Below are positions 1,523-15,538 of a DNA stretch of 23,172 nt, in pieces. The DNA lies in IMG/VR virus record IMGVR_UViG_3300035190_000263, positions 1 to 23,172 of that record; one strand, given 5' to 3'. Source of the DNA: a virus. The translations under genes were made by a program, and so were the position numbers. Below the pieces are notes generated by a model, which worked only from the letters and a program-made list of their open reading frames with translations, was not told where the DNA came from and searched no databases. Positions within the stretch are counted from its first letter, which is position 1. The number at the start of each line of letters is the position of its first letter.

Positions 1523-2530
1523 ATGGCTGAGAGACAAAACTACATCGTAAGAAATGGAGTTGCTCAGCCCTTCCCAATACCCGATGCACCGAGGCCTACA
1601 ATCTCGGAAATGCGTCAACTATTGCGAGGTTATGATCAACAAGGAACGCTACTACCAAACGCAGCGATCATAACCAACGACATATCCAAGGTCGATATTC
1701 TTCGTTGTGGAACCCTGTATGCAGACAATATTGCAGGAATAGTAGCGGAAACTTGGACAAATCCAGAACCAGTATACATCACATTAGGTGGTGTTGAGCA
1801 GGGTGATGTTCTAACTGGTCTTACTGCAATAGACATTCTTGAGAGGATATTGTATCCATATCTGGCAGTATCCGTGTCATCTTTCAGTATGAACTATTCT
1901 CAGACGGTATTTGAGATAGGACAGACAACTCCAACTGCTTCTTTGTTTCCTTCTTGGAGTTTACAAAACATCTCGAATGCCACAGCAACTGGAACAAATA
2001 TCACTTATGTCTATTCTGGTGGTTCTTCTGGTTCTGTCCTCAGTGCGGCAAATCCAGCATCATCTGGTTCGGTCTTTGTATTACCTCCTGGCATCAACTC
2101 CACAACGGTAGGTGCTACTCTCATATACACAATAAGTGTTGCACAAAATGAAGGTTCTCCTGCAACTCGTACACAGACGATTTCTTGGAGAAGCAAGATC
2201 TATGTCGGTAAGAACGCCAGCAGCGATGTGAATACAATCACTAATCACAGTCAGTTGAGCAATGGAACAAGTCAGTTCATCACTTCCAGTTCATCTCCTG
2301 CTGCATCTGGTATTTCTCTTACCGCAGGATCTGGATATGTGTATATTTTTGTTCATACTTCCCTGAACGAAATAGCATCCATATCCATAGGAACGACCGA
2401 TCAGACACCAGCATTTCCTCTGGTTTCTTCCAATCATAACTTTACAAATGCATCTGGAGCCATTTCTACCTATAGAGTATACAGATCGACAAACCAACTT
2501 AATGGAGATTTCACTCTGAATATAACCTGA
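1523..2530 (+). CDS. Putative tail fibre / virion structural protein
   Basis: Predicted protein of 335 residues. The first ~120 residues look like an attachment region: a polar N-terminus, then VDILRCGTLYADNIAG and the segment GLTAIDILERILYPYLAVSV. This is followed by Ser/Thr/Gly-rich beta sequence with repeated aromatic positions (WSLQNIS near residue 145, YTISVAQNEG, TISWRSKIYVG near 225) and a C-terminal part with YVYIFVHTSLNEIASISI. That layout (ILYPY linker, Ig-like strands, closing YVYIF..P segment) occurs in structural proteins of marine phages. No enzyme motif is visible. Ribosome-binding site GAGGTG is at 1513-1518. One base separates the stop from the next ATG, and that next gene has no close Shine-Dalgarno, so coupling is likely. 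Unlike its neighbours it lacks the D-G-G-T-Y/F terminus. Confidence 0.75.
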   Translation: MAERQNYIVRNGVAQPFPIPDAPRPTISEMRQLLRGYDQQGTLLPNAAIITNDISKVDILRCGTLYADNIAGIVAETWTNPEPVYITLGGVEQGDVLTGLTAIDILERILYPYLAVSVSSFSMNYSQTVFEIGQTTPTASLFPSWSLQNISNATATGTNITYVYSGGSSGSVLSAANPASSGSVFVLPPGINSTTVGATLIYTISVAQNEGSPATRTQTISWRSKIYVGKNASSDVNTITNHSQLSNGTSQFITSSSSPAASGISLTAGSGYVYIFVHTSLNEIASISIGTTDQTPAFPLVSSNHNFTNASGAISTYRVYRSTNQLNGDFTLNIT

Positions 2531-2531
2531 T

Positions 2532-2927
2532 ATGCCTATTCCGAATACCGTCACAGTTGCTGCACCGATTGCACCAACTTCGGAGTTGGACACTTACCCA
2601 GTAACCAACCCGAAGTATGGTCTTGGTGGTCTACGCACTGTGGTCGATTCGACGGAAAGAGAAGGTATATCCAGTGATCGCAGACAGGTTGGAATGATGG
2701 TGTATGAAAGTACAAATAATGCTTTCTATACTTTGATTGGCGGAACAGATAATACAAATTGGCGTCAGGTTATTATGCTAATACCTGATGCATTTGGAAA
2801 TATACATATAGATGCAAACATCATACTCACTGGCTATCTGGAAACAGATACTGGAATTCGTGGTGGAACTGATGAAGCACTGGAATATCTTGGAAATGGT
2901 ATGTTGATGGATTGTGGAAACTATTAA
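2532..2927 (+). CDS. Small structural protein with RTVVDSTER domain and shared C-terminal cassette
   Basis: Predicted 131-residue protein. Residues ~30-80 contain GGLRTVVDSTEREGISSDRR then GMMVYESTNNAFYTLIGG and NWRQV, a module recurrent in phage structural proteins in which a parameter-like beta domain is followed by a short fibre tail. The last ~43 residues (GNIHIDANIILTGYLETD ... RGGTDEALEYLG ... MDCGNY) match the end of the 7030-7491 protein almost position for position, although their N-terminal domains differ. It ends in D-C-G-N-Y, one of the C-terminal signatures of this cluster. There is no close ribosome-binding site, and the ATG follows the upstream stop by one base, so translational coupling is expected. 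The role is probably a fibre-base or adaptor protein. Confidence 0.75.
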   Translation: MPIPNTVTVAAPIAPTSELDTYPVTNPKYGLGGLRTVVDSTEREGISSDRRQVGMMVYESTNNAFYTLIGGTDNTNWRQVIMLIPDAFGNIHIDANIILTGYLETDTGIRGGTDEALEYLGNGMLMDCGNY

Positions 2928-2947
2928 CTCTTTAAAGGGGCTAAACT

Positions 2948-5884
2948 ATGGCTGGAGGAACTGGTAATTTAATTCTTAAGCGCGGTACTTCAATACCAAA
3001 AAATATTGTAAGTGACGGAGAGGCAACTCTTTTAAAAGGTATGCCGGCAGTACAACTTGTTGGTCTATCCCGCGTTGTTGATACTAGCGGAACTTTGGGT
3101 GGTCCTCTTGTTTATGCTTTTGATAATTATCCAAATCGACTTTGGGTTGGTATGGATAATTTTGGTACAGGAACTCCCGAAAGTAATTCTGGTACTGGTG
3201 GTGGAGTTACTCCTGGCAGCATGGGCGGGGGTAATATTTTTACCGGCAGCGATCAAGAAGATAGTGATCCTACTAGAACTCGTGGTCTTTGGATGGGTGC
3301 AGAAATTAGAGCGGCGCAAGCGGTATATGTATCAGGAAGTAATGGCATTGATGCTGTTCCTACTATTCTACAAGCAGATTGGGCTAATCCTTCTGATGTT
3401 GTGTTAGTAACGCAGAAAGCAATCAAAGATTATGTTGGTACTCTTGGATCTTTGGTTATAGCGGATATTGGTTCAAAATCTAACACGATGTATCCAATGA
3501 TGGTTGATGGTATTGGAGCACAAACAGTTTATATTGACAGTGCAACCACTCCTTTTTCTTATGCTCCTAGCAGCAATACTCTTACTGTTTCTGGTGATCT
3601 TGCCGTAAATGGCGGAGACATCACTACCACTAACACTGGTACTAGCACTATTTTCAACACAAACACCACTAGAGTTGATATTGGCGGTGCAGCAACTGAT
3701 ATGAGGATTGGTAATCTTGCATCAACTGGATCAGTTAGAGTAGGACAAACACTGGTTGGTAATACAACAACGCAGAATGTCTTCGATACTGGTGCAACTA
3801 CTGTAAATGCATTTGGTGCTGCAAATGTTGGTCTTAATTTAGGTTATGATGGTAATTTATCTTCGACAACAAATATAGTTGTTGGAGATGTAACAAGTGT
3901 ATCTACTAAAACAATAAACATAGGTACTGGTGTTACGGAGGGTGGAGTAAGTATAACCGTAGGATCTTCTGGTGCTGGAACTGCTTCTCTTGTTACTGTG
4001 GGTGGTCTTTTGACCGTTACTGAAAATCTTGCTGTAAATGGTGCAAGTAACACTGCTGATATTACCACTACTAATACGGTTGCTAAAGTGTTTAATTCTA
4101 CAGCAACCACTGTAAATATTGGTGGTGCTGCAACTACTCTAACCATCGGAGCAGCAACAGGTACAACGACGATAAACAATGCCAACACTGTAGTAACTGG
4201 TGATCTAAGTATCGGTGGTGGTTCCGCACCAAAATCCATTAAATTTCTTGAAGCGTCTGGAAATGGAACTAATTTTGTTGCATTTAAAGCACCCTCTCTG
4301 ATTACCACTTCTAGAACATATATTTTGCCTGATGATTTTCCTGATGCAAATAAAGTTCTACAATCAGATACTTCTGGTAATTTGACTTGGGTGAGTGCTG
4401 GTAATGCTTCGACTGTATCCATAGGTTCGTCTGGTGATTCCATAGAATATGGTGTAGTTCTTGCAACAACAGGATCTAAAGGTGGTAATGCTTCTCTTGT
4501 TATGGACAACGGAGACAATATAACCTACAATCCTTCCACAGATACACTGACAGTTCCCAATCTTATTGTAAATGGAACAACCACAACAATAGACACAACC
4601 AATCTCCTTGTTGAAGACGCAAATATAATAATCGGTAATACTGCAAGTCCTAGTGACACAACAGGAAATGGTGGTGGTATAACTCTGAAATCCAATTCAG
4701 ATAGAACGATTACTTGGGATAAAGATATTAATCCTGGTGGTACGACCACTGGTACTTGGAAAGTAAACACAAATTTCAGTATACCTGATGGTGGTGGTTA
4801 TTTATTTGCTGCTGATAAAGTATTAGGTAAAACATTCTTGTCTCTTTTTAATTCTGGTACTGGTGGTGGCTCTTTCACAATAAAAGCACCAACCACAACA
4901 AGTCCAACTGACTTGGCAAGCGGTTTGGGTATGAGATTACCTTCTACGGTCGCTTCTAGCGGACAGATACTAAGAGTCGCGTCTATGTCCAGTAACGAGG
5001 CACAATTAGAGTGGGCAACTCCTTCGGCAGGCGTCGCAGGATCTAATACTCAGGTGATGTTTAATAATAATGGATCTCTTGCTGGTGATGCTGGTTTTAC
5101 TTATGATCTTAATTCAGACAGTGTTACTCTTGCTGGAGATATTGCAGTAAATGGAGGTGATATTACTACCACCGCTGCTACTCTAAGCATAGGAAATACA
5201 TCAACCAGTTCTAACACCACTACTAATATTTCTAATGCAGCAATAAGTAGCGGTGTAAGTAAAACAGTAAATATAGGTACAAATTCTAGTACATCATCTA
5301 CTACTGTTATAAACATAGGAACGGGTTGGAATCAGATCACCGCAGGTACTATTAATTTGGGCACATTTGGTGCAACTGGTATAGTAGCAAATATGCCTAT
5401 AAGATATACTGGTAATTCTGGAAGTAATTATGTTCAATTACAGGCTCCACAATCAACTTCATTTAGCAATTATACACTGACTTTCCCAACAACATCACCA
5501 TCTAACGGTCAATTGTTGAGTTCGGATTCAAGTGGTAATTTATCTTGGACTACTCAGAGCAATATAACTGCTGGTTCTGTGAATGTCAGACTAGAAACAG
5601 GAGTTTTTGATTCCACTACACCAAGAAGATATAACATTCCTTTCTTGGGTTCTAATGGACAAGACAATCCTTCTGTTCTTTCTGGTTTAAGTGAAGGTAC
5701 AGCAACCGCCGCATATCTTTATGTCGATAGTACCACCTTTAATATTCAGGCAGATACATCTGGAAATTATACAAACAGAGTTAGTGGATTGTATTATGAG
5801 ATAGATGACACTACTGGTTCTCCTTATGTGGGAACCCTCTACTGTGACTATATCGGTGCAATGTTGGATTGCGGAACATACTGA
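2948..5884 (+). CDS. Large tail fibre protein with Mtd-like N-terminal domain and beta repeats
   Basis: Predicted 978-residue protein. Residues 1-75 form an attachment domain (NLILKRGTSIPKN, GMPAVQLVGL, NRLWVGMDNFG), followed by a Gly/Ser/Thr linker, then LWMGAEIRA (~114) and VTQKAIKDYVG (~153). Residues ~180-430 carry repeats of the form FN.TATTVNIGGAATTLTIG. A module near 440-490 holds FVAFKAP and a Gly-Asn-Leu-Thr-Trp strand. Near 540 comes VNGTTTTIDTTNLLVED with GGGITLKSNSDRTITW. Related AP/LP modules recur near 640 and 827, and an SNTQVMFNNNGSLAGDAG module lies near 700. The C-terminus DYIGAMLDCGTY carries the cluster signature. The length and repeats fit a long trimeric fibre. AAAGGGG at 2934-2940 precedes ATG 2948. 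It is the longest fibre in the module and may be a shaft with several receptor-facing segments. Confidence 0.85.
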   Translation: MAGGTGNLILKRGTSIPKNIVSDGEATLLKGMPAVQLVGLSRVVDTSGTLGGPLVYAFDNYPNRLWVGMDNFGTGTPESNSGTGGGVTPGSMGGGNIFTGSDQEDSDPTRTRGLWMGAEIRAAQAVYVSGSNGIDAVPTILQADWANPSDVVLVTQKAIKDYVGTLGSLVIADIGSKSNTMYPMMVDGIGAQTVYIDSATTPFSYAPSSNTLTVSGDLAVNGGDITTTNTGTSTIFNTNTTRVDIGGAATDMRIGNLASTGSVRVGQTLVGNTTTQNVFDTGATTVNAFGAANVGLNLGYDGNLSSTTNIVVGDVTSVSTKTINIGTGVTEGGVSITVGSSGAGTASLVTVGGLLTVTENLAVNGASNTADITTTNTVAKVFNSTATTVNIGGAATTLTIGAATGTTTINNANTVVTGDLSIGGGSAPKSIKFLEASGNGTNFVAFKAPSLITTSRTYILPDDFPDANKVLQSDTSGNLTWVSAGNASTVSIGSSGDSIEYGVVLATTGSKGGNASLVMDNGDNITYNPSTDTLTVPNLIVNGTTTTIDTTNLLVEDANIIIGNTASPSDTTGNGGGITLKSNSDRTITWDKDINPGGTTTGTWKVNTNFSIPDGGGYLFAADKVLGKTFLSLFNSGTGGGSFTIKAPTTTSPTDLASGLGMRLPSTVASSGQILRVASMSSNEAQLEWATPSAGVAGSNTQVMFNNNGSLAGDAGFTYDLNSDSVTLAGDIAVNGGDITTTAATLSIGNTSTSSNTTTNISNAAISSGVSKTVNIGTNSSTSSTTVINIGTGWNQITAGTINLGTFGATGIVANMPIRYTGNSGSNYVQLQAPQSTSFSNYTLTFPTTSPSNGQLLSSDSSGNLSWTTQSNITAGSVNVRLETGVFDSTTPRRYNIPFLGSNGQDNPSVLSGLSEGTATAAYLYVDSTTFNIQADTSGNYTNRVSGLYYEIDDTTGSPYVGTLYCDYIGAMLDCGTY

Positions 5885-5935
5885 TTCTTAACTAAATACT
5901 TCTGTTCGACCTGAAATTTTTATTATGGATGAATA
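5885..5935 (+). other. Longest gap in the structural module, with a weak late-promoter-like motif
   Basis: This 51-base gap separates two paralogous fibre genes. It contains CTAAATA (5892-5898), one mismatch from the ATAAATA late core, and GGATGA shortly before ATG 5936 as a modest ribosome-binding site. An in-frame mini-ORF (ATG GAT GAA TAA) overlaps that site. I see no hairpin. A secondary late promoter is possible but weakly supported. Confidence 0.3.
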
Positions 5936-7030
5936 ATGGCTGGAACTGGTAATCTACTGTTAAAACGAGGAGGTCTACTTCCGAATGAAGGTGTGCTCAT
6001 ACATGGCATGCCAGCAGTACAATTACAGGGTTTAAGTACCACAATAAATCTCGCCGGAACCAGTAATGGTGGTGAGTATGCCTACAATAACTATCAAAAC
6101 AGATTATGGGTTGGTGTTAATGGTTACGGCTGTAATGGTTCTGGTACTGGTACTGGTTCTACTGGTTCCACAGGAGGTACTGCTGAATTCGGTACTAATC
6201 CGTATCCTGCAACTGGTGGGGCCTCTGCTTGTCCTACCACTGGAGCAACAAGACCTATATGGATGGGTGCAGAAATTCGTGCCCACACCCCAGTAAAAGA
6301 AAATGCAGGAGATACTTACTATACTATTCTGAAAGCCGACTGGAATAATCCATCTGATTATGTCCTAGTTACACAGAAAGCAATCAAGGAGTATGTGTCT
6401 ACTGTAGCAGGATCTTCTGCTCCTGTGCTGTACGAAATAGATGGCGGAACTACTAATACAGTAACTCTCGGGTTGTCTACTGGTGATGCGTTTGATGGTG
6501 CCGGTGCTGCCTATTCGGGTGGTAAAATTCTTTTACCTGATCCTAATACGGATATTCAATTAAATGGTGCTGCTGCTGGATATTTGATCGCAGTGGATAA
6601 TGTTGTTAATGCTTCTGCCAACAATACTATTGTTCATCTCAAATGGCAACCGACTACTGGTTTTGTCACCAAATCTGGTATAGGATTGACCAATGATAGT
6701 AATGTCGCCCTCCTTGGTTCCGACGGCGCAACAAAAGGAACGCAAACATTCCAATCACCAGTAGGAGTAGAGAACTATCTGGATCTTCTTGGATACACCG
6801 ACATAAACAATCCAAATAATCCAGCAACAATAAAATCATCAAACTCTACCGCTGCTTCCATATTTGATACTGGTGTTCTCGACATAAGCATCGGTGGAGC
6901 AACAGAACTCATAGAAATTGGTGATGGTTCTACCAACGGAAATACAGCCACCACAATCTACGGTGAATTAACAGTAACTGGTCCGACCAATCTGAGTTCG
7001 GATACTGTCATAGACGGAGGAACTTTCTGA
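5936..7030 (+). CDS. Tail fibre protein, paralogue of the 978-residue fibre N-terminus
   Basis: Predicted protein of 364 residues. The first ~155 residues parallel the preceding large fibre: NLLLKRGGLLPNEG, GMPAVQLQGL, NRLWVGVNGYG, a Gly/Thr/Ser linker (GTGTGSTGSTGG), IWMGAEIRA (~108) and VTQKAIKEYVST (~146). After this comes a beta-rich body with the segment LPDPNTDIQLNGAAAGYLIA and a single copy of the IGGATELIEIG type repeat near residue 320. The C-terminus is VIDGGTF. The shared head suggests that both proteins dock onto the same or equivalent virion sites, while the different bodies suggest distinct fibre lengths or receptors. The stop TGA overlaps the next ATG (TGATG). I infer a short side fibre or a fibre-chain segment. 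Confidence 0.82.
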   Translation: MAGTGNLLLKRGGLLPNEGVLIHGMPAVQLQGLSTTINLAGTSNGGEYAYNNYQNRLWVGVNGYGCNGSGTGTGSTGSTGGTAEFGTNPYPATGGASACPTTGATRPIWMGAEIRAHTPVKENAGDTYYTILKADWNNPSDYVLVTQKAIKEYVSTVAGSSAPVLYEIDGGTTNTVTLGLSTGDAFDGAGAAYSGGKILLPDPNTDIQLNGAAAGYLIAVDNVVNASANNTIVHLKWQPTTGFVTKSGIGLTNDSNVALLGSDGATKGTQTFQSPVGVENYLDLLGYTDINNPNNPATIKSSNSTAASIFDTGVLDISIGGATELIEIGDGSTNGNTATTIYGELTVTGPTNLSSDTVIDGGTF

Positions 7031-7491
7031 TGCCAGTAGTATTGAGAACAAAGCGTTCCGCCACGACAGGAACAACGCCATCAAATCTAGAACTCGGAGA
7101 GTTGGCAGTAAACATTCCAGACAAGAAAATCTGGATAGGTGACGGAACAGCCACTCCTGCTTTGATTGCAGATTACAATGCCGCTGCTGGGCAATATTAT
7201 GCCGGAAATGGTATAGCGATTGATGGGTCCAATAATATCTCTCTGGATCTGTCCGCAGTGGATGAGCCAGAAGTGAACTTTACTACCGCCAATGAGATGA
7301 ATTTTCAAGCAGGAAACGCAACAATCAGCGGTATACGAGGTATTGTTGCCGATAGTAATGGAAACATATACATAACAGGGAACCTTATAGTTTCTGGATA
7401 CTTGGAAACTGATGTCGGGGTTCGCGGCGGAACAGACGCTGAATTGGAATATCTGGGTGAAAATATGGTTATGGATGGTGGAACTTTCTAA
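7030..7491 (+). CDS. Small structural protein: Mtd-like N-terminus plus shared C-terminal cassette
   Basis: Predicted 153-residue protein. Residues 1-45 (VLRTKRSATTGTTPSNLELG, ELAVNIPDKKIWIGDG) follow the RRGT..P / GELAVNT / IWIG pattern of the N-terminal domain of the Bordetella phage tropism determinant Mtd. A middle segment with YAGNGIAIDGSNNISLDLS resembles short strand-turn repeats of fibre proteins. The last ~43 residues (GNIYITGNLIVSGYLETD ... RGGTDAELEYLG ... MDGGTF) are closely related to the end of the 2532-2927 protein. The combination of a paralogous head and a shuffled tail in such a short protein points to an adaptor or fibre-tip capping role; that is inference. It is translationally linked to the upstream fibre by TGATG. 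Confidence 0.78.
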   Translation: MPVVLRTKRSATTGTTPSNLELGELAVNIPDKKIWIGDGTATPALIADYNAAAGQYYAGNGIAIDGSNNISLDLSAVDEPEVNFTTANEMNFQAGNATISGIRGIVADSNGNIYITGNLIVSGYLETDVGVRGGTDAELEYLGENMVMDGGTF

Positions 7492-7506
7492 AATTAGGAG
7501 TAGAAA

Positions 7507-9414
7507 ATGGCAACAATTAGAATCAAAAGAGGTACAACCGATCCAACAGCAGCACAAGTAACCAACTCTGGTGAGTTGGCGGCAAATACCAGCACACCCA
7601 AGATTTGGCTAAAGACCGCAGATGACGGTACTACCACTCCAATCTGGGTCGGTGCTCAGATCGAAAACAGTTCGACCAACGGAACAACTTGGACCAGCGA
7701 TGTAAAACTTGCCACCAAGAAAGCAATCGGTGACTATTTCATGCCTCTCAGTGGTGGAACTTTCACCAGTGATGTATCTTTTTCTGGTGGTGCCGATATT
7801 CGCTTTATTGAAACTGGTGGTGGAACCGATTATGTCGCTTTTCAGGCTCCATCTGCTATAGCATCATCTGTAACTTGGACACTTCCAAATGCAGATGGTT
7901 CGAACGGACAGTTCCTCAAGACAAACGGTACAGGAACTCTTTCTTGGGCAGATCCAGGCACAGCAACCTCTGCTACTAATTTGGCTGGTGGATCTACAGG
8001 AGCAATTCCATATCAATCAGCAACAAGTACAACCACATTCCTTTCAGCAGGAACATCTGGTGATATTCTCACATATGGTGGTTCAAATGCTCCAGCATGG
8101 TCTTCTGGTACAGGAACAGGTTCTCCAGTTAGAGCAACATCTCCAACATTAACAACACCAACATTAGGTGTTGCCACAGCAACAAGCATAAACAAAGTAG
8201 CAATTACTGCTCCAGCAACAAGTGCTACTCTTACCATTGCAGATGGAAAGACACTTACTGCAAGTAATACTCTAACATTCACTGGTACGGATTCTTCTTC
8301 TGTTGCTTTTGGTACTGGTGGTACTGTAGCATATCAAGGTGGAACTCTTGCTCAATTTGCATCAACAACTTCTTCGCAACTTGCGGGAGTTATATCAGAC
8401 GAAACTGGTTCTGGTGCATTGGTATTTGGTACATCTCCAACATTCACAACTGCTATAGACGGTGGAGCATCATTTAGCGCCTTTGCAAGTAGTACCACAC
8501 TTACAGTGGGTTACAATTCTACAGCAGCATCTACAACAAACATCTCCACAGGTGCTGTTGCGTCTGCCACTACCAAGACAATCAATATCGGTACTGGTGG
8601 TGCTGCTGGTTCCACTACAAATATAAATCTTGGTTCTTCTAACGGAGGAACAGTCACTGTAAATAAAGATCTTGTAGTATCTGGAGATCTTACAGTAAAT
8701 GGTACAACAACCACTATTAATTCTACAACAATAAGCGTTGATGATAAGAATATAGAATTGGGATCGGTTGGAACTCCCAGTAACACAACGGCAGATGGTG
8801 GTGGTATTACTCTGAAAGGTGCTACGGACAAAACACTCAACTGGGTAAACGCAACTGGTGCTTGGACATCTTCTGAAGATTTCAACCTTCTAACGGGTAA
8901 GGTATACGAGATCAACGGAACAACTGTTCTCTCCTCGTCTGCTCTAGGAACTGGTGTAACTGGATCTTCTCTAACATCTGTCGGTACGATCACTACAGGT
9001 GTTTGGAATGGTACTGATATTGGTCTTGCAGATGGTGGTACAAATGCATCTTTGACAGCAGTAAACGGTGGTATAGTTTACTCTACTGCATCTGCTATGG
9101 CAATCTCTGCCGCTGGTACATCTAATCAGGTTCTCTTGTCTGGTGGTGCTGGTGCTCCAACTTGGGCCGCTCAATCTTCGCTCTCTGTAGGTTCTGCCAC
9201 AACTGCAACGACAGCAACCAATGTCGGACTCTCAGAAGCAACATCATCTGACAGCACTGCTCTTTATCTGACATTTGTTGCTTCTGGTGCTTCTGGTGCT
9301 CTTAAGATTGATGCAACTGCCCAAGCGGGTCTTGCTGCTCTTTCTTATGTTCCTTCCACTGGTGTTTTGACTGCATATAAGGTAGAAGCCATCGTAGACG
9401 GTGGAACTTACTAA
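7507..9414 (+). CDS. Tail fibre protein with Mtd-like head and T4-like fibre repeats
   Basis: Predicted protein of 635 residues. The head (residues 1-50) has IRIKRGTTDPTAAQ, GELAANTSTPKIWL and PIWVGAQI, followed by ATKKAIGDYFMPLSGGTFT (~70-89), a collar-type sequence common in phage fibres. DYVAFQAP with WTLPNADGSNGQFL lies near 107-140. The central part is low-complexity Ser/Thr/Gly sequence. Near 395-470 a widespread fibre module appears (VNGTTTTINSTTISVDDKNI, GGGITLKGATDKTLNWV, TGKVYEINGTTVLS), then GTITTGVWNGTDIGLADGG. The end is IVDGGTY. TTAGGAG at 7494-7500 is a clear ribosome-binding site. The order head, collar, shaft modules and closing strand is that of a trimeric long or side fibre. 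No tip domain of known receptor specificity is recognised. Confidence 0.85.
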   Translation: MATIRIKRGTTDPTAAQVTNSGELAANTSTPKIWLKTADDGTTTPIWVGAQIENSSTNGTTWTSDVKLATKKAIGDYFMPLSGGTFTSDVSFSGGADIRFIETGGGTDYVAFQAPSAIASSVTWTLPNADGSNGQFLKTNGTGTLSWADPGTATSATNLAGGSTGAIPYQSATSTTTFLSAGTSGDILTYGGSNAPAWSSGTGTGSPVRATSPTLTTPTLGVATATSINKVAITAPATSATLTIADGKTLTASNTLTFTGTDSSSVAFGTGGTVAYQGGTLAQFASTTSSQLAGVISDETGSGALVFGTSPTFTTAIDGGASFSAFASSTTLTVGYNSTAASTTNISTGAVASATTKTINIGTGGAAGSTTNINLGSSNGGTVTVNKDLVVSGDLTVNGTTTTINSTTISVDDKNIELGSVGTPSNTTADGGGITLKGATDKTLNWVNATGAWTSSEDFNLLTGKVYEINGTTVLSSSALGTGVTGSSLTSVGTITTGVWNGTDIGLADGGTNASLTAVNGGIVYSTASAMAISAAGTSNQVLLSGGAGAPTWAAQSSLSVGSATTATTATNVGLSEATSSDSTALYLTFVASGASGALKIDATAQAGLAALSYVPSTGVLTAYKVEAIVDGGTY

Positions 9415-9438
9415 TACATACAGTAAAGGAGATTTGTA

Positions 9439-9714
9439 ATGAGTGAAGTGAATTATAATGAGACAGTCGTGATTCCCGTGTTACAAAAGAAGTATCAGGA
9501 TCTTATGAACAGCAATCTTGTTCTAGAGATCAATTTATTGGTCGAGCAAACCAAGAACAGAGATCTACAGCAAAAACTAGACAATGCTATGAGCATCGAA
9601 CAAACCAAAAACACAGATCTACAGCAAAAACTAGACAATGCTATAACAAAGATAGAGACACTGAAGAAAAACGGTAAAAAGAAAGAAGAAGGGCTTGACG
9701 GAAGCACTTATTGA
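9439..9714 (+). CDS. Small coiled-coil protein with tandem repeat and fibre-type C-terminus
   Basis: Predicted 91-residue protein, rich in Gln, Lys, Glu, Asn and Leu, predicted as a continuous coiled coil from about residue 12 to 78. Two 18-residue tandem repeats, EQTKNRDLQQKLDNAMSI and EQTKNTDLQQKLDNAITK, cover residues 36-71. They are followed by a Lys-rich stretch (LKKNGKKKEE) and the terminus GLDGSTY. That ending is a variant of the D-G-G-T-Y signature on neighbouring fibre proteins, although the rest of the protein is unrelated to them. AAAGGAG before ATG 9439 is a strong ribosome-binding site. Its position between two large fibre genes suggests a trimerising rod, tail spacer or assembly factor. 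I know of no assigned function. Confidence 0.72.
   Translation: MSEVNYNETVVIPVLQKKYQDLMNSNLVLEINLLVEQTKNRDLQQKLDNAMSIEQTKNTDLQQKLDNAITKIETLKKNGKKKEEGLDGSTY
9544..9651 (+). repeat. 54-bp tandem duplication in the coiled-coil gene
   Basis: Units 9544-9597 and 9598-9651 are nearly identical at the DNA level, sharing an unbroken run from GATCTACAGC through GACAATGCTAT. Each encodes 18 residues, so the reading frame and most of the heptad phase are kept. A recent slippage or unequal-crossover duplication that changes rod length is the simplest reading. Confidence 0.88.
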
Positions 9715-9722
9715 TGTATGAT
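9695..9722 (+). promoter_or_regulatory. Possible sigma70-type promoter before the 601-residue fibre gene
   Basis: TTGACG (9695-9700), a 16-base spacer and TATGAT (9717-9722) lie at the end of the coiled-coil gene, with start expected near 9729 in the 36-base gap. The -35 falls on Leu-Asp-Gly codons of the C-terminal signature and may therefore be fortuitous. Confidence 0.33.
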
Positions 9723-9750
9723 GTTTTCGTAATGAACGGAGCGATTTGAA

Positions 9751-11556
9751 ATGGCGACTATTCTTCCGAGAAGAGGAACTACAGCACCCACCACAGGACT
9801 GACTCAATACGAGTTGGCAGTGGATACTACTAATAAGAGAATCTATATTGGAAACTCTGGTGGAAGTGGTGATCTTATTGGTTCTGCTCCTGGCGGGTCT
9901 GATACACAAATACAGTTCAATGACGGTGGTAATCTGGGTGGTGATTCTGGTCTTACATACAACAAGACGACAGATGCCTTGACCATGGTGGGTGATCTGA
10001 ATCTAAATGGTGGAGGAATAAAATCGAATCAGGCAACTGTTTCTATTCTTCCATCTACAGTCACTACACTCAATATTGGTGGCGCCGCAACTGCTCTTAA
10101 TTTGGGAACAACGACAGGAACCACGACTATAAACAGTCCAACGGTGGTCGGTTCTCAAACAACACAAGCACTTTATGATACTGTAGCAACCACGATGAAT
10201 TTTGCTAGAGCAGCAACTTCGATTACTATGGGTGCTGCTACAGGAACTAGTGCAATAAGAAATCCAACACTAAGAGTAGGAAACACAACTGGATCAATAA
10301 CTACTAATAGTACGGCAAATACCAATCATTTAACTTTAGGTCCTTATGGTAAAGTTATGTTGGTTCCAACAACTGGTCTTATAAATGGTGGAAGCATTCC
10401 CTCTATTACTGTGGAGAATACAGATCAAGCAACTGGTGTGGTAGAGATTGCTGGTGGAGATCTTTTTCTTACTCGAAAGACAGCAGATGATGCTACTTTT
10501 ACTCCAGTGAATATCATATTTGAAGGATCTGGAAACGATACTTCTGAAACCACTCTTACAGTAGAAAACCCGACAGCCGACAGAACAATTACACTACCAG
10601 ACGCAACTGGAACCGTAGGTGTAATGACTTCTCCTACAAATCAGCAGATTCAGTTTTATGACAGTACCACCAAGAATCTTAAGGGCGATGCGGATCTTAT
10701 TTTTGATGGAACTAACCTACAGATAGGATCACAAGGAGATTTGCGTCTTGCTGATTCTGATTCATCAAACTGGGTTGCTTTTCAAGCACCAGCAACAGTA
10801 GCATCAAATGTCACTTGGACTCTACCATCAACTGATGGTACAAATGGTCAAGCACTAGTAACAAACGGTACTGGTACTCTTTCTTGGGCAACTGCTGGAG
10901 GAGGAACACCTGGCGGTTCTGACACACAGGTTCAGTTCAATGATGGAGGAAGTACATTTGGTGGAGATGCTGGTCTTACCTACAACAAGACAACTGATAC
11001 TTTGACTGTAACTGGTGATGTTGCTGTAAATGGTGGCGATCTGACGACAACGGCAGCAACTGCAACACTGTTTAATTCTAGTGCTACAACTCTTAGTATT
11101 GGTGGTGCCACTTCTTCTACTATTAACATAGGCGCAACAGGTGGAACATCTACCATTGACCTTAATTCTAATATTCTTAAAGAAGTGGAATTGAGAAACT
11201 ACTTTGAGAGTGAAGGAACAGTTACATATACTGGTGGAATGGTTCAAGATCTTTCTTTTGATCTTAGCACAGGTAATGTGTTTGTATACACAACAACAGG
11301 TTCTATTTCTCAATTTACAGTAACGAATATTCCATCCAAGGCAAATACAGCAGTTGGTTTTACTGTTGTCCTTACTTGTGGTAATGGTCTATATGCTGTA
11401 TCTTTTGATACTTTTAGTTCTGGTAGTCCAGTATGGGCAGGAGGAACTCCACCAACGGCATCTAACACAGTAGGAAGAACAGACATTGTTTCGTATGTTA
11501 CATACGATGGTGGAACTACTTGGTATGGAACTGTAGGAGGCTTGAATTTCTATTGA
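9751..11556 (+). CDS. Tail fibre protein with Mtd-like head and duplicated internal cassette
   Basis: Predicted protein of 601 residues. The head has LPRRGTTAPTTGLTQ, YELAVDTTNKRIYIGNSGG (residues 5-40). A cassette GGSDTQIQFNDGG / GLTYNKTTDALTM begins at residue 48 and recurs at residue 388 as GGSDTQVQFNDGG / GLTYNKTTDTLTV. Three strand repeats of the TTLNIGGAATALNLG kind follow the first copy. WVAFQAP and WTLPSTDGTNGQ lie near 341-365, related to the 7507 protein. The last ~125 residues form a different closing domain ([38 protein letters not shown]) resembling C-terminal domains of marine phage fibre proteins. It does not end in D-G-G-T-Y. The weak ribosome-binding site is CGGAG. It probably forms a trimeric fibre whose last domain is exposed. 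Confidence 0.83.
   Translation: MATILPRRGTTAPTTGLTQYELAVDTTNKRIYIGNSGGSGDLIGSAPGGSDTQIQFNDGGNLGGDSGLTYNKTTDALTMVGDLNLNGGGIKSNQATVSILPSTVTTLNIGGAATALNLGTTTGTTTINSPTVVGSQTTQALYDTVATTMNFARAATSITMGAATGTSAIRNPTLRVGNTTGSITTNSTANTNHLTLGPYGKVMLVPTTGLINGGSIPSITVENTDQATGVVEIAGGDLFLTRKTADDATFTPVNIIFEGSGNDTSETTLTVENPTADRTITLPDATGTVGVMTSPTNQQIQFYDSTTKNLKGDADLIFDGTNLQIGSQGDLRLADSDSSNWVAFQAPATVASNVTWTLPSTDGTNGQALVTNGTGTLSWATAGGGTPGGSDTQVQFNDGGSTFGGDAGLTYNKTTDTLTVTGDVAVNGGDLTTTAATATLFNSSATTLSIGGATSSTINIGATGGTSTIDLNSNILKEVELRNYFESEGTVTYTGGMVQDLSFDLSTGNVFVYTTTGSISQFTVTNIPSKANTAVGFTVVLTCGNGLYAVSFDTFSSGSPVWAGGTPPTASNTVGRTDIVSYVTYDGGTTWYGTVGGLNFY
9892..10015 (+). repeat. First copy of the SDTQ-FND cassette in a fibre gene
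   Basis: Encodes GGSDTQIQFNDGG ... GLTYNKTTDALTM with the following GDLNLNGGG. The second copy is 1020 bases downstream in the same gene, and a diverged relative lies near 5040-5160 in the 978-residue fibre gene. Confidence 0.7.
10912..11038 (+). repeat. Second copy of the SDTQ-FND cassette
   Basis: Encodes GGSDTQVQFNDGG ... GLTYNKTTDTLTV with GDVAVNGGD. Codons differ at many third positions from the first copy, so the duplication is old or has been under selection for protein sequence. Confidence 0.7.
11535..11540 (+). promoter_or_regulatory. Shine-Dalgarno AGGAGG deciding a TTG start
   Basis: AGGAGG lies 12 bases before TTG 11553, inside the codons for the last residues of the upstream fibre. 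It favours TTG 11553, which overlaps the TGA stop as TTGA, over the earlier in-frame TTG at 11520. Confidence 0.55.
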
Positions 11557-12068
11557 TTCTTGGTGGTCTAACATCCTCTATACCAATTGAAAGAACTGTA
11601 CCAGATTATGTTCCTTCCACTATAACTTGGTCTGATGTAACATCAAACGGTATGAGTGGAACCACAAATATTCAGCAAGTAACAGGAATAAACACAAATA
11701 TAACTTTGACTGTAAGTTGGACAGGTTCTCTTGGATATTTTTATGTTTCAGTCAACGATTCAAATGCATATGGTGGCAGAATCTTTCTTTTAGAGACATC
11801 TCCACAGAAAATTGCTGTCATGCCTGGTCAGTATGTGTCTTTTAGAGTCGATGCAATAGGACTTCAAAACAATCTTACAAGAAGTGTGACAGTCACTAAT
11901 TTCTCAAACAATAATGGAGCGGTCGATACAGTATCCATAACTGTTGACGGAACAACCACAAAAAGCACCAACTACGACTACAATTTATTCTGGGATAGAG
12001 AGATGTTGGTGGATAGATACGACAGTGCATCTGTCAGTACAACTGCACAAGGATGGTTTACAAGATGA
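11553..12068 (+). CDS. Putative Ig-like virion structural protein (TTG start)
   Basis: Predicted 171-residue protein. The open frame extends upstream to a TTG at 11520, but AGGAGG at 11535-11540 and a TTGA overlap with the upstream stop favour 11553. The start is [20 protein letters not shown], followed by [17 protein letters not shown] and an alternating-strand body ([56 protein letters not shown]) typical of an Ig-like beta sandwich. It ends with [15 protein letters not shown]. No catalytic motif is visible. It is coupled on both sides, with the fibre upstream and the adhesin downstream (ATGA), so a stoichiometric partnership such as an adaptor or chaperone for the adhesin is plausible. Family assignment is uncertain. 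Confidence 0.68.
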
Positions 12069-14998
12069 GAAAAAATAGACATAATAATGGGTTTATTGGA
12101 CAGGAAGATATGTTCTACTCTGTTCAAGGAATATTAGCGGGAGCAAAAGGCTATACACTATCTACTTTGAATAAACAAACAAAAGAAACTTCAAAAATTT
12201 CTTATGTTAGGCCTACCGATGGTGGTTGTACTACGAAAGCAACTGCAACTGCATCTCTCACTAATACTGTTTTGACGGGAATAGCGGTTACAAATGTAGG
12301 ATCTGGTTATACATCCGATCCTTTAGTTACAATTTCTGGTTCTGGTGGAACTACGGTATATGCAACTCCGACAAGAAGTGGAAACACCATAACTGCAATA
12401 AGTCCGTGGTATAAAGTCGTATCTATTGAGATTTTACATGCTGGTTCTGGTTATACTTCTGCGCCAAGTATTAGTATCGGTTCTCCTACTAATGGTACGG
12501 CATCGGTCACCGGCAGTATTTCTGGTACTACTTTGACTGTTACTGCTGTTAGTTCTGGCGTCTTGTTTCCAGGTCAACTAATATCAGGAACAGGTGTAAC
12601 CTCTGGAACAACAATAACTGGTTATGGAACAGGAACGGGTGGTACAGGAACATATACGGTTAGCAGCAGTCAAACCGTATCTAGTACCACAATATCAGGA
12701 ACAGGTACGGCTACTGCTACGGTGTCAATAACTAACGGTTCTGTTTCTTCTGCTACTGTTACATATACTGGTGCAAAATATACAAGCATTCCCACTATTA
12801 GTATTGCTGGTGGAGGCAACCCTCCTGATTCGGCGGTAGTATATGTTGTTATGGAAACAGGTAAAGATTATACCGATGTTCCTACTGTTTCCATAACGGG
12901 TGGTGGTGGTACTTCTGCTACCGCAACAGCAAGTATAAAAGGAAAACTTGGATCTATAACTGTTACGAATGGTGGTTCTGGATATACATCGGCGCCTACA
13001 GTTTTTATAGAAGGTGTAGATCCTACCTATGGGGGAGTAACCGCAACTGCATCTGTAAGTGGTGGTTCTGTGACATCAATTTCAGTATCAGGAACGGAAA
13101 CTTTTGGTTATGCTCCTGAAATTGAAATTGGTGGATGGAAACAATTACCTACCGTAAATGAGGGTGAACAAAAACTGGTTGGAGCAGTTGCTGTTTATAA
13201 TAACAATTCTAATTTTTTGGCATTTACTTGTGCGGGAAATTATACGGTAGATTGGGGCGATGGTACATCTAATAATTATAATTCAGGTGTTACTGCATAT
13301 AAGGTGTATGACTCTACTTCTTATTCTAATTTAACATCTCAAGTTTTTAGGGATTATAAAACAGCAATAGTTACTATAACACCACAAGCAGGACAAAATC
13401 TAACTAGTGTCAATTTAAGAGTAAAGCACAATCAAAGTGGTTTGACTTCTTATTACAATAATCCTTGGCTAGACATTAGAATGGCGGGATCGAATATTTC
13501 GACTCTGCAAATAGGAGATAACAACGAGTTCGGTGGAATCGGTCCGCCCACTCCTACAACGGCATGGTGTACCTTGTTGGAGCAGTTTGAATTTATAGGT
13601 ACAAATACTATAACTAATTTTACAAATTTATTCAATTCTTGTCTTTCTTTAAGAAATATTGTTTCTTTGTATACCAACAGTGGTACGACATTCAATAGAG
13701 TGTTTGCAAAATGTTTTTCTTTACCATTTGTACCAGCATTAAATACAAGTAATGGTACAAGTTTTGTTGCTATGTATCAGGAGTGTCATGCTTTACTGTT
13801 TATTGGTGGTATAGACACACAAAATGCTACTGCAATTGGTGCTAATGGTACAAATGGTGGTATTTTTGAAAATTGTCACAACTTAATGATTTTTCCTAAA
13901 ATGAATTTATCAAAGTGTACTAATATGGGTTACTCATTCAAAAATACTTATAAACTTCGATATGTTCCCAGTCTAGATTTAATAAGAGTAACTCAGTTAA
14001 GTCAATCTTTTAATGGTTCTGGAATTAAAATAATAGAACCATTGTATATACCAAGAGCGTCACTTACTTCGACATTTACAAACTGTGTGAATTTAGAAAA
14101 AATAATCATCAGCAATTTGGCTTCAGCAACAAGTGTTAGCAGTTTATTTTCTGGTTGTACTGCTTTGGTGGAAGTGGTTCTGGAAAAAACAAATAGAGTT
14201 ACCGATTTTAGTAGTTTATTTTCTAGTTGTAGTTCATTACAACTTATAAACAGGCACACCAATAAACTTGATATGACTTCTGCAACTAATGCAAGTAGTA
14301 TGTTTGCTAACTGTAGATCGTTGAACAAAATACCAGAATTAGTAAATATGAATTTTTTAACTATTGTTGATTCTATGTTTTCGGGTTGTACGGTGCTTAC
14401 AGTTGCACCTTTCTGTGATTTTTCGAAAACAAACTCCACCACAAGTATTTACTCTAGTTGTAGAGTTTTATTTGAAAAACCATGCATTAACACATTTAAT
14501 ACTTTAATCACCACTAGTCTTTTTTCTGGTTGTTATGCAATTCAAAATATAAAAAATTTAAAAACATCTTTGTGTACCAATTTTGGTGCTATGTTTAGTA
14601 GTTGTTCTAATTTAAAATCGGTGTCTAATTTTACTATATATCCGATCCGAGGAACCTTAGCAACAAATGCTTATAACACTATGTTTAGTTTTAGTTACGG
14701 TGTAACAAATATTCCTAATTTTGACTTTTCACTTGTACCAACAGGTTCCAGTTATGATACAATTTTTACTAATTTTGTAAATACTACTGGAAGTTCTTTA
14801 GGATCGTTTAAAGCAACTGGTATTAATAAAAATATAAATGTTTCAAATGGTAAATTATCTGCAACAGAATTAAACGAAATTTATACAAATTTGGCCTCAG
14901 GTGTTTCGGGTAAAACTATTACAGTAACAGGAAACTGGGGAACAGCATCTGACAATCCAGCAATCGCAACTGCAAAGGGTTGGTCAGTAACAGGATAA
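12065..14998 (+). CDS. Adhesin-like tail protein: GSGYTSAP repeats, PKD-like segment and BspA-type leucine-rich repeats
   Basis: Predicted protein of 977 residues. ATG 12065 is chosen because it overlaps the upstream stop (ATGA); an earlier in-frame ATG at 12053 exists. Layout: a polar N-terminus; repeats of [10 protein letters not shown] type near residues 76, 126, 234, 263 and 300; at ~147-216 a widespread phage module ([20 protein letters not shown] then [18 protein letters not shown]); a PKD-like [12 protein letters not shown] near 390; about 16 leucine-rich repeats of 22-26 residues (~504-910), most with a [FY]xxC core (NLFNSC, SLFSGC, SMFANC); and a C-terminal region [16 protein letters not shown] with [10 protein letters not shown]. 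BspA-type repeats are known in surface adhesins of bacteria and protists. Here they probably form a receptor-binding arm. The repeat half is richer in A/T codons (TTA, TTT, AAT) than the replication genes, which may mark acquisition from another source. Confidence 0.8.
13576..14790 (+). repeat. Leucine-rich repeat tract with cysteine ladder
   Basis: Sixteen successive protein repeats carry the core [FY]-x-x-[CTSF]; twelve have Cys at that position (for example NLFNSC, RVFAKC, AMYQEC, GIFENC, STFTNC, SLFSGC, SLFSSC, SMFANC, SMFSGC, SIYSSC, SLFSGC, AMFSSC). The DNA copies are diverged, so this is an old amplification kept by selection rather than a recent one. Confidence 0.75.
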
Positions 14999-15002
14999 TA
15001 TT

Positions 15003-15215
15003 ATGGAAAACACAGCAGGATTTTATAAAAATGATAATGGATATGTTTTGTATGGTCCAAATTTTGTTTTAAACGCAAACTATGAATTAAGAAAAGAAAC
15101 AAAAAATCAACACACATATCCAACAGACGGATGGTATTGGTTTGATTCTGAGGAAGAAGCATACGCTTCTTTTGGATTAGAGTACAACCCACCAGAACAA
15201 AATAACGGAGAATAA
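15003..15215 (+). CDS. Small phage protein, aromatic-rich, unknown function
   Basis: Predicted 70-residue protein. The N-terminal FYKNDNGYVLYGPNFVLN is followed by the aromatic core TYPTDGWYWFDSEEEAYASF and an acidic, Asn/Gln-rich end. Proteins with the Gly-Trp-Tyr-Trp-Phe-Asp-Ser-Glu pattern occur next to fibre genes in many phages, but no activity is assigned that I can name. The ATG lies four bases after the adhesin stop, and GGAG at its 3' end serves the next gene. AGGA before it is a modest ribosome-binding site. It may be a virion decoration or fibre-associated protein; that is inference from location. Confidence 0.66.
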   Translation: MENTAGFYKNDNGYVLYGPNFVLNANYELRKETKNQHTYPTDGWYWFDSEEEAYASFGLEYNPPEQNNGE

Positions 15216-15217
15216 TA

Positions 15218-15538
15218 ATGGCAGAAACATATAAAAGTCAAGCAACAAAACTAACAGCAACCACAAATACTACAATTTATTCTGGTGTAGTTGGTACTGC
15301 TATAGTTAATAGCATAAATATTTCAAATGTTGATGCGTCTACTTCTTGTAGCGTTAATATATTTTTAGTAAAATCGTCAACCTCATACAGTATTATTTCA
15401 AATGTTTTTATTCCACCTGGCGCAACACTACAGGTTCTAGATGCTCCTATGGTGTGTGCTTCTGGAGACACTATTACTGCAACTGCCTCGATTGCAAATG
15501 ATCTTGAGTGTATTGTTTCCGTGCTTGAAATAACATAA
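15218..15538 (+). CDS. Putative small virion structural protein (beta-sandwich)
   Basis: Predicted 106-residue protein, rich in Ser, Thr, Val, Ile and Ala. Visible pattern: YKSQATKLTATTNTTIYSGV, AIVNSINISNVDASTSCSVN, VFIPPGATLQVLD and ASGDTITATASIANDLECIV. This is the layout of a small beta protein repeatedly found in the structural gene clusters of marine podo- and myoviruses. It has no charged catalytic cluster. GGAG at 15206-15209 precedes the ATG. The stop TAA overlaps the next start (TAATG). It is the last structural gene before the metabolic genes. The exact virion location is unknown. Confidence 0.74.
   Translation: MAETYKSQATKLTATTNTTIYSGVVGTAIVNSINISNVDASTSCSVNIFLVKSSTSYSIISNVFIPPGATLQVLDAPMVCASGDTITATASIANDLECIVSVLEIT

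Follow-up and report, generated by a model that had tools for sequence, protein, structure and literature searches.

A recurrent C-terminal signature in phage fibre clusters and its association with an N-terminal domain of downstream fibre proteins

Why would the products of six consecutive genes in the fibre cluster of a virus end in nearly the same few residues? The question is raised by the IMG/VR virus record IMGVR_UViG_3300035190_000263, which was analysed over a stretch of 23,172 bases (hereafter, the window). A preliminary description of this DNA had noticed the shared ending, D-[GC]-[GS]-[TN]-[YF] directly before the stop codon, and had read it as a C-terminal tag for a common docking partner, a trimer-capping strand or a chaperone signal. 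We find that this tag is strictly C-terminal, occurs on unrelated protein families, and is paired, both in gene order and across genomes, with an N-terminal domain of about 50 residues (IKxKRS...P...GELA; here, the KR domain), and that the distal KR proteins are untagged. On balance, we lean towards an explanation in which the C-terminal tags of each fibre segment act as plugs that fit into the KR domain, or socket, of the segment after it; the fibre would thus be segmented, and its distal segment would have a socket without a plug.

A shared ending on consecutive genes

The six endings are present as described, on the genes that end at 2927, 5884, 7030, 7491, 9414 and 9714, and the series indeed stops after the gene at 9439, the fibre gene at 9751-11556 being without it. 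The genes in question, with the one that precedes them, are as follows.

1523-2530: gene preceding the tagged series; untagged, product ends ..LNIT
2532-2927, + strand: small adaptor-like protein of 131 amino acids (aa), no KR domain; ends MDCGNY, tag DCGNY at 2910-2924
2948-5884, + strand: KR-type fibre protein, 978 aa, starting MAGGTGNLILKRG..; ends LDCGTY, tag DCGTY at 5867-5881
5936-7030, + strand: KR-type fibre protein, 364 aa, starting MAGTGNLLLKRG..; ends IDGGTF, tag DGGTF at 7013-7027
7030-7491, + strand: KR-type protein, 153 aa, KR domain at about 7030-7173; ends MDGGTF, tag DGGTF at 7474-7488
7507-9414, + strand: KR-type fibre protein, 635 aa, starting MATIRIKRGTTDPT..; ends VDGGTY, tag DGGTY at 9397-9411
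9439-9714, + strand: short coiled-coil-like protein, 91 aa, no KR domain; ends LDGSTY, tag DGSTY at 9697-9711
9751-11556, + strand: KR-type fibre protein, 601 aa, starting MATILPRRGTTAPT.. with a GELA-like ELAV, matching tail fiber PHROGs; untagged, ends ..LNFY; proposed distal segment, with socket and no plug

The homologues of the gene at 2532-2927 (L011-L019) retain the ending as DCGNY, DCGEY, DCGTY or DGGTY, those of the 9439 protein end in DGQTY, DANTY or DADTY, and the same positions of related loci carry DCGEY, DGGEY, DGGNF, DGGAY, DADTY and DGQTY; thus, the ending is conserved while the proteins diverge. The preliminary description had also set aside homology of the whole proteins as the cause. 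We likewise reject it, since the tagged proteins, once the tag is cut off, fall into 33 blastp families (about 30 sequence families), some of the single-member ones possibly being spurious open reading frames (ORFs) or mergeable by a more sensitive search. The claim does not extend to the genes ending at 2927 and 7491, in which about 25 residues of similar sequence precede the tag, so that these two endings are not wholly independent. The families include adaptors of 75-140 aa, KR fibres, coiled coils and collagen-like fibres, and range in size from KR proteins of about 65 aa to fibres of 1,600 aa.

Could the cause lie in the DNA instead, as a repeat, a recombination site, or an overlap with a promoter or ribosome-binding site at gene ends that is translated by accident? 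The endings do lie at gene junctions, and one of them is followed by CTAAATA at 5892, which resembles a T4-type late promoter. However, the tag codons of the window are synonymous variants (GAT/GAC, GGA/GGT, ACT/ACA) with both TAA and TGA stops, and this variation implies that selection acts on the peptide and that the tag is not a DNA repeat. Overall, no position of the tag keeps to a single synonymous codon, each of the three stop codons occurs, no two junctions share the DNA that follows the stop, and tags are also found far from KR genes. Given the varied codons and stops and the different flanks, we reject a repeat or a promoter or ribosome-binding overlap, and hold any such DNA-level origin to be exceedingly improbable.

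The tag beyond the window

At typical amino-acid frequencies such a C-terminus is expected by chance in about 7e-6 of genes, a figure that applies to a pattern chosen post hoc; for this reason, independent tests weigh more. A scan of IMG/VR for DGGTF-stop, blind to gene context, returned at least 120 contigs, and among the 122 matches listed, 120 coincide with the end of an ORF no shorter than 60 aa, and for 100 of them the ORF reaches 100 aa or more. The scrambled control, GGDTF-stop, occurs on 57 IMG/VR contigs in total, with 0 of 57 ending an ORF of at least 100 aa (Fisher p=7e-29). This enrichment is conservative, because the control partly holds a variant of the tag (..DGGDTF before KR genes). 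The variant, which has one added residue, ends small proteins right before KR-type genes at seven loci (L166, L173, L193, L194, L196, L198 and L207). In control contigs, none of the 462 ORFs of at least 100 aa has a DGGTF-type ending, and the pentapeptide is rare within proteins. The preliminary description had allowed that the ending might be equally frequent in unrelated phage proteins; both the scrambled control (against 120 of 122) and the empty set of control ORFs speak otherwise.

The core consensus is [ILV]-D-G-G-[TSN]-[FY]-COOH, with a wider form [ILV]-[DN]-[GAC]-G-x-[FY]-COOH, and in all 58 of the occurrences near the ends of genes upstream of KR genes the motif stands at offset 0 from the C-terminus. 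The tag is, therefore, neither a product of chance nor local to the window: it occurs in many environmental and marine phages, on otherwise unrelated fibre and adaptor proteins.

An N-terminal domain accompanies the tag

The KR domain is distantly like the N-terminal domain of Mtd, and in the window it starts the proteins encoded at 2948, 5936, 7030, 7507 and 9751. Directly downstream of 101 of the 186 tagged genes lies a gene that starts with a KR-type element, and the typical order is a tagged adaptor, a tagged KR fibre, an optional coiled coil and an untagged KR fibre; a small coiled-coil gene often follows the tagged fibre. To break the circularity of starting from the tag, we drew a tag-blind sample of 120 IMG/VR genes, picked solely by the KR motif GELAINYADGK. 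In 99 of these 120, the upstream neighbour ends in the tag or a close variant (D[GAC][GS]x[FYW] in 59, NGGTF in 18, [ST]GGTF in 8 and [DNE][DNE]F in 14), and none of the 86 complete KR products of the sample is itself tagged. Within the same loci, a tag or variant stands upstream of 75 of 94 KR genes as against 71 of 720 other genes (p=1e-46). Since IMG/VR contigs are partly redundant, the pairs were also thinned to 120 below 70% identity; in this non-redundant set 86 of the 120 upstream genes end in F, Y or W, 76 of the 86 with Gly at -3, the background of aromatic ends in control contigs being 9%. The end logo of these upstream genes reads [ILV] D G G [TSN] [FY]. On whole contigs, a hidden Markov model of the KR domain matches 39 of 50 tagged records versus 9 of 46 controls, with 7 of the 9 control matches belonging to one lineage.

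The motif GELAINYADGK is present on at least 120 IMG/VR contigs, whereas 257 Gb of genomes from bacteria and archaea gave 0 exact matches; prophages thus seem to be almost devoid of this form of the KR domain. No fusion of the two elements in one chain (tag, then KR domain) was seen among the internal motif matches in the loci examined. Some untagged distal KR proteins have endings of their own: a second C-terminal signature, ..AIALG (VALAIALG, VAMAIALG, MSIALG, FAIALG), ends such proteins as well as small proteins of the fibre region, and another set of ends reads ..FMEVI or ..YMEVL. These two signatures were noted on distal KR proteins at L244, L218, L085, L105 and L129, in HTVC106P gp54 and in Melnitz 188.

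Complete isolates

The tag and the KR domain are either both present or both absent in all 10 of the complete isolates checked. P-SSM2, P-HM1, Melnitz, S-CBS2, S-CAM7 and PSS2 have both, and S-WAM2, S-PM2, HTVC106P and BPP-1 have neither under the model of the KR domain that was applied; S-WAM2, S-PM2 and S-CAM7 are Kyanoviridae relatives. A pattern match in S-PM2 has an in-frame stop inside it. In several isolates the two elements follow each other directly: P-HM1 has 092 (..VNGGSF), 093 (KR, ..IDGGTF), 094 (coil, ..DDF) and 095 (KR); Melnitz has 185 (..LNGGTF), 186 (KR, ..IDGGTYS) and 187 (KR, untagged); S-CBS2 has a tagged and then an untagged KR protein; and in PSS2 gp086, which ends ..VGGTF, is followed by the KR gene gp087.

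In P-SSM2, PSSM2_117 (..INGGNF) and PSSM2_118 (KR, ..LDGGTF) lie beside gp13, and 112 kb separate this pair from the sole other KR gene, that of the ‘tail fiber protein’ PSSM2_293. Likewise, in S-CAM7 the tagged gp132, of 85 aa, is next to gp13, and the one KR fibre, gp208, of 4,168 aa, is 94 kb off. The elements being unlinked in these two genomes, linkage of genes alone does not create the association.

A proposed joint and its rivals

We posit a plug-and-socket joint. The plug would be the C-terminal D-G-G-[TSN]-[FY]-COOH, with its terminal aromatic, flexible Gly-Gly and acid; a tagged protein (an adaptor, a fibre segment or sometimes a coiled coil), presumably a trimer, would offer its free C-termini, and these would bind directly into a socket formed by the KR domain at the start of the following fibre protein, a small beta domain of the same general kind as those that begin Mtd and HylP. 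Repetition of plug and socket could build a hetero-oligomeric fibre, probably a tail rather than a head fibre, from an adaptor through successive KR fibres to the last KR fibre, which, having a socket but no plug, would be the free tip. The predicted order of segments in the virion of the window is 2532, 2948, 5936, 7030, 7507 (with the tagged coiled coil 9439) and 9751. Such a joint would explain the terminal position of the tag, its indifference to the fold upstream, the pairing with KR genes and the lack of a tag on the last KR protein; since the untagged fibre at 9751, the last of the series, has a KR domain at its start, a feature that the preliminary description did not notice, it would also explain where the tag stops. 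Of the readings offered in the preliminary description, docking on a common partner is thus the one that gained support, the proposed partner being the KR domain of the next fibre; the trimer-capping strand and the chaperone signal found none.

In the AlphaFold2 monomer model of the 7030 product (153 aa), residues 1-50 form four strands with block-mean confidence (predicted local distance difference test, pLDDT) of 81-94, and 90-94 over residues 11-50; confidence is low directly after the KR domain, and the tag region scores 55-66. A stand-alone KR protein models in the same way. Low confidence for the tag in a monomer fits a peptide that may need its partner, without proving it.

Several observations weigh against the joint as proposed, the first being that the tag is not ordered in this monomer prediction. 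Covariation between the tag and the KR domain is suggestive of pairing, being strongest between the last tag residue and KR position 15 (z 6.5, with non-tag positions at 3.9 or below), and Tyr tags avoid KR domains with a [YF]Y strand (0 of 8 versus 23 of 43), but both statistics are uncorrected for phylogeny. In the window, L007 and L015, tagged proteins exceed KR starts by one, and in each a tagged protein without a KR domain precedes the last KR gene; because of this one surplus tag, a simple linear chain cannot account for every tag, and branching or co-assembly is possible. The Mtd gene of BPP-1, taken as a positive control, has no tagged gene upstream. Finally, some tagged proteins, a minority, stand beside no KR gene. 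They include a membrane-like protein encoded just before a uvsX-like gene; it ends KMDGGTF with no fibre gene near (L054 2257-3090; L077 3659-4222, minus strand), proteins of 74-89 aa ending [KNS][LMF]DGGTF, which in T4-like contigs come before a conserved ‘MSRPKP.VLLE’ gene and do not belong to a fibre cluster (L058, L078, L086 and L106), and ‘MSNYTKATDF..’ proteins on the short contigs L083, L133 and L142.

The chief rival explanation makes use of some of these same facts. Each tagged protein might dock separately, by its C-terminus, on one component of the virion such as the baseplate, neck or head, with the adjacency of KR genes reflecting mere operon order. Several tagged proteins per genome, tags on proteins without a KR domain (adaptors, coiled coils and the membrane-like protein before uvsX), and the surplus of tags over KR starts in the three loci would all follow naturally from such a common hub. 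Yet the association of KR domain and tag persists between unlinked genes in P-SSM2 and S-CAM7, the distal KR protein is never tagged, and no untagged family besides KR was seen to track the tag, though no systematic search for one was made. We regard a common hub as unlikely. We think it somewhat less likely still that the tag is recognized by a fibre-assembly chaperone or folding catalyst and forms no joint in the finished fibre: a tag confined to the very C-terminus, whatever the fold upstream, would suit such a signal, and the small coiled-coil gene that often follows the tagged fibre could encode the factor, but in the window and several relatives the coiled-coil protein carries the tag too, tags precede KR genes even where there is no such gene, and the distal fibre, which should need folding too, is untagged.

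A self-capping role, in which the final residues seal the end of the trimer they belong to, is improbable, even if the hydrophobic residue at -6 and the aromatic one at -1 could pack on the trimer axis, for a cap makes no prediction of a downstream KR gene. As in the case of the chaperone, it has to contend with the variety of the tagged proteins (33 families, from KR proteins of about 65 aa and coiled coils to 1,600-aa fibres) and with a tag that is not confidently placed in the monomer model. The plug-and-socket joint is the explanation we favour. It is conceivable, with a likelihood a little short of even, that this is one standard joint across many lineages of mostly uncultivated tailed phages, whose interchangeable segments would allow host-range modules to be swapped with the interface unchanged.

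Relationship to known fibre systems

The long tail fibre of T4 (gp34-gp35-gp36-gp37) consists of different proteins joined end to end from proximal to distal, and the proposed model shares this plan; however, each joint of the T4 fibre is different, whereas one standard end signature recurs here. Neither Pfam nor PHROGs searches matched any of the eight structural proteins of the window to a gp34-gp37 family. A further parallel is offered by branched receptor-binding proteins (K1-5, SP6, KP32/KP34 and G7C), in which the attached protein carries a conserved N-terminal docking peptide and the acceptor is a T4 gp10-like domain (PMC6872550). There, too, a very short conserved terminal peptide couples a receptor-binding protein to another virion protein, and the modules are exchangeable. 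Unlike that peptide, the tag is C-terminal in all cases, lies on the upstream protein and spans about 30 families, and the role of acceptor would fall to the KR domain that begins the downstream fibre rather than to a gp10-like domain, for which the fibre genes of the window have no Pfam or PHROG match.

The proposed socket itself resembles the N-terminal domain of Mtd (PF18454, Mtd_N; PDB 1yu0-1yu4) and HylP-type N-termini (PDB 2dp5, 2c3f) in being a small N-terminal beta domain that starts trimeric phage fibres, with weak similarity in both sequence and fold. The 7030 and 9751 proteins match Mtd_N with an E-value of 0.0019 and 18.5 bits, below the Pfam gathering cut-off of 26.3, and only 3 of 35 KR members match it at all (best E-value 7.6e-5). 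Foldseek with the KR model gave only weak matches, among them Mtd (E-value 0.8, probability 0.63) and HylP2, and a PDB search with the KR domain gave nothing credible. The KR domain thus differs from Mtd in falling below the Pfam cut-off where tested, as BPP-1 Mtd differs in lacking an upstream tag. No description of the tag or of ‘DGGTF’ was found in the literature searched, preprints and most subscription papers being outside its reach, and we consider the novelty of the pairing provisional.

Implications and further observations

Should the tag physically bind the KR domain, six C-terminal residues and a domain of 50 residues would be enough to recognize the segments of a fibre, their order and the receptor-binding tip from sequence alone, in viral contigs that number in the thousands and that annotation at present fails to resolve. 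Such binding would also account for the movement of fibre segments between phages that are not related, and would provide a minimal peptide-domain pair that is easily tested in vitro. Whatever the mechanism, a strictly C-terminal signature on about 30 unrelated families of phage proteins is useful for annotation.

PDB searches with tagged fibres match their middle domains only (the capsid decoration protein 9nx3, ‘tail fiber gp9’ 23sh and orf22 9efk). In some tagged KR fibres the middle domain matches ‘head decoration’ or ‘capsid decoration’ families (phrog_2647; PDB 9nx3), as at S-CBS2 NC_015463 37607-38731, L125 3035-5332 and L150 6455-7657; consequently, some of the chains could be head rather than tail fibres. 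The middle part of the 7507 protein of the window resembles virion structural proteins of cyanophages (PHROGs: phrog_6002, E-value 1.9e-53).

The window as a whole carries a T4-like replication set. RegA is identified by Pfam (PF01818, E-value 7.5e-44), while a B-family polymerase, a dUTPase and UvsX-like and DnaB-like proteins were assigned by reading the ORFs. This set encloses the structural cluster (1523-15538), which follows directly on RegA, and the same layout is seen in the nearest relatives. Beside the fibre genes, at 12053-14998, a protein of 981 aa contains a DUF285 (leucine-rich repeat-like) region (E-value 2e-15).

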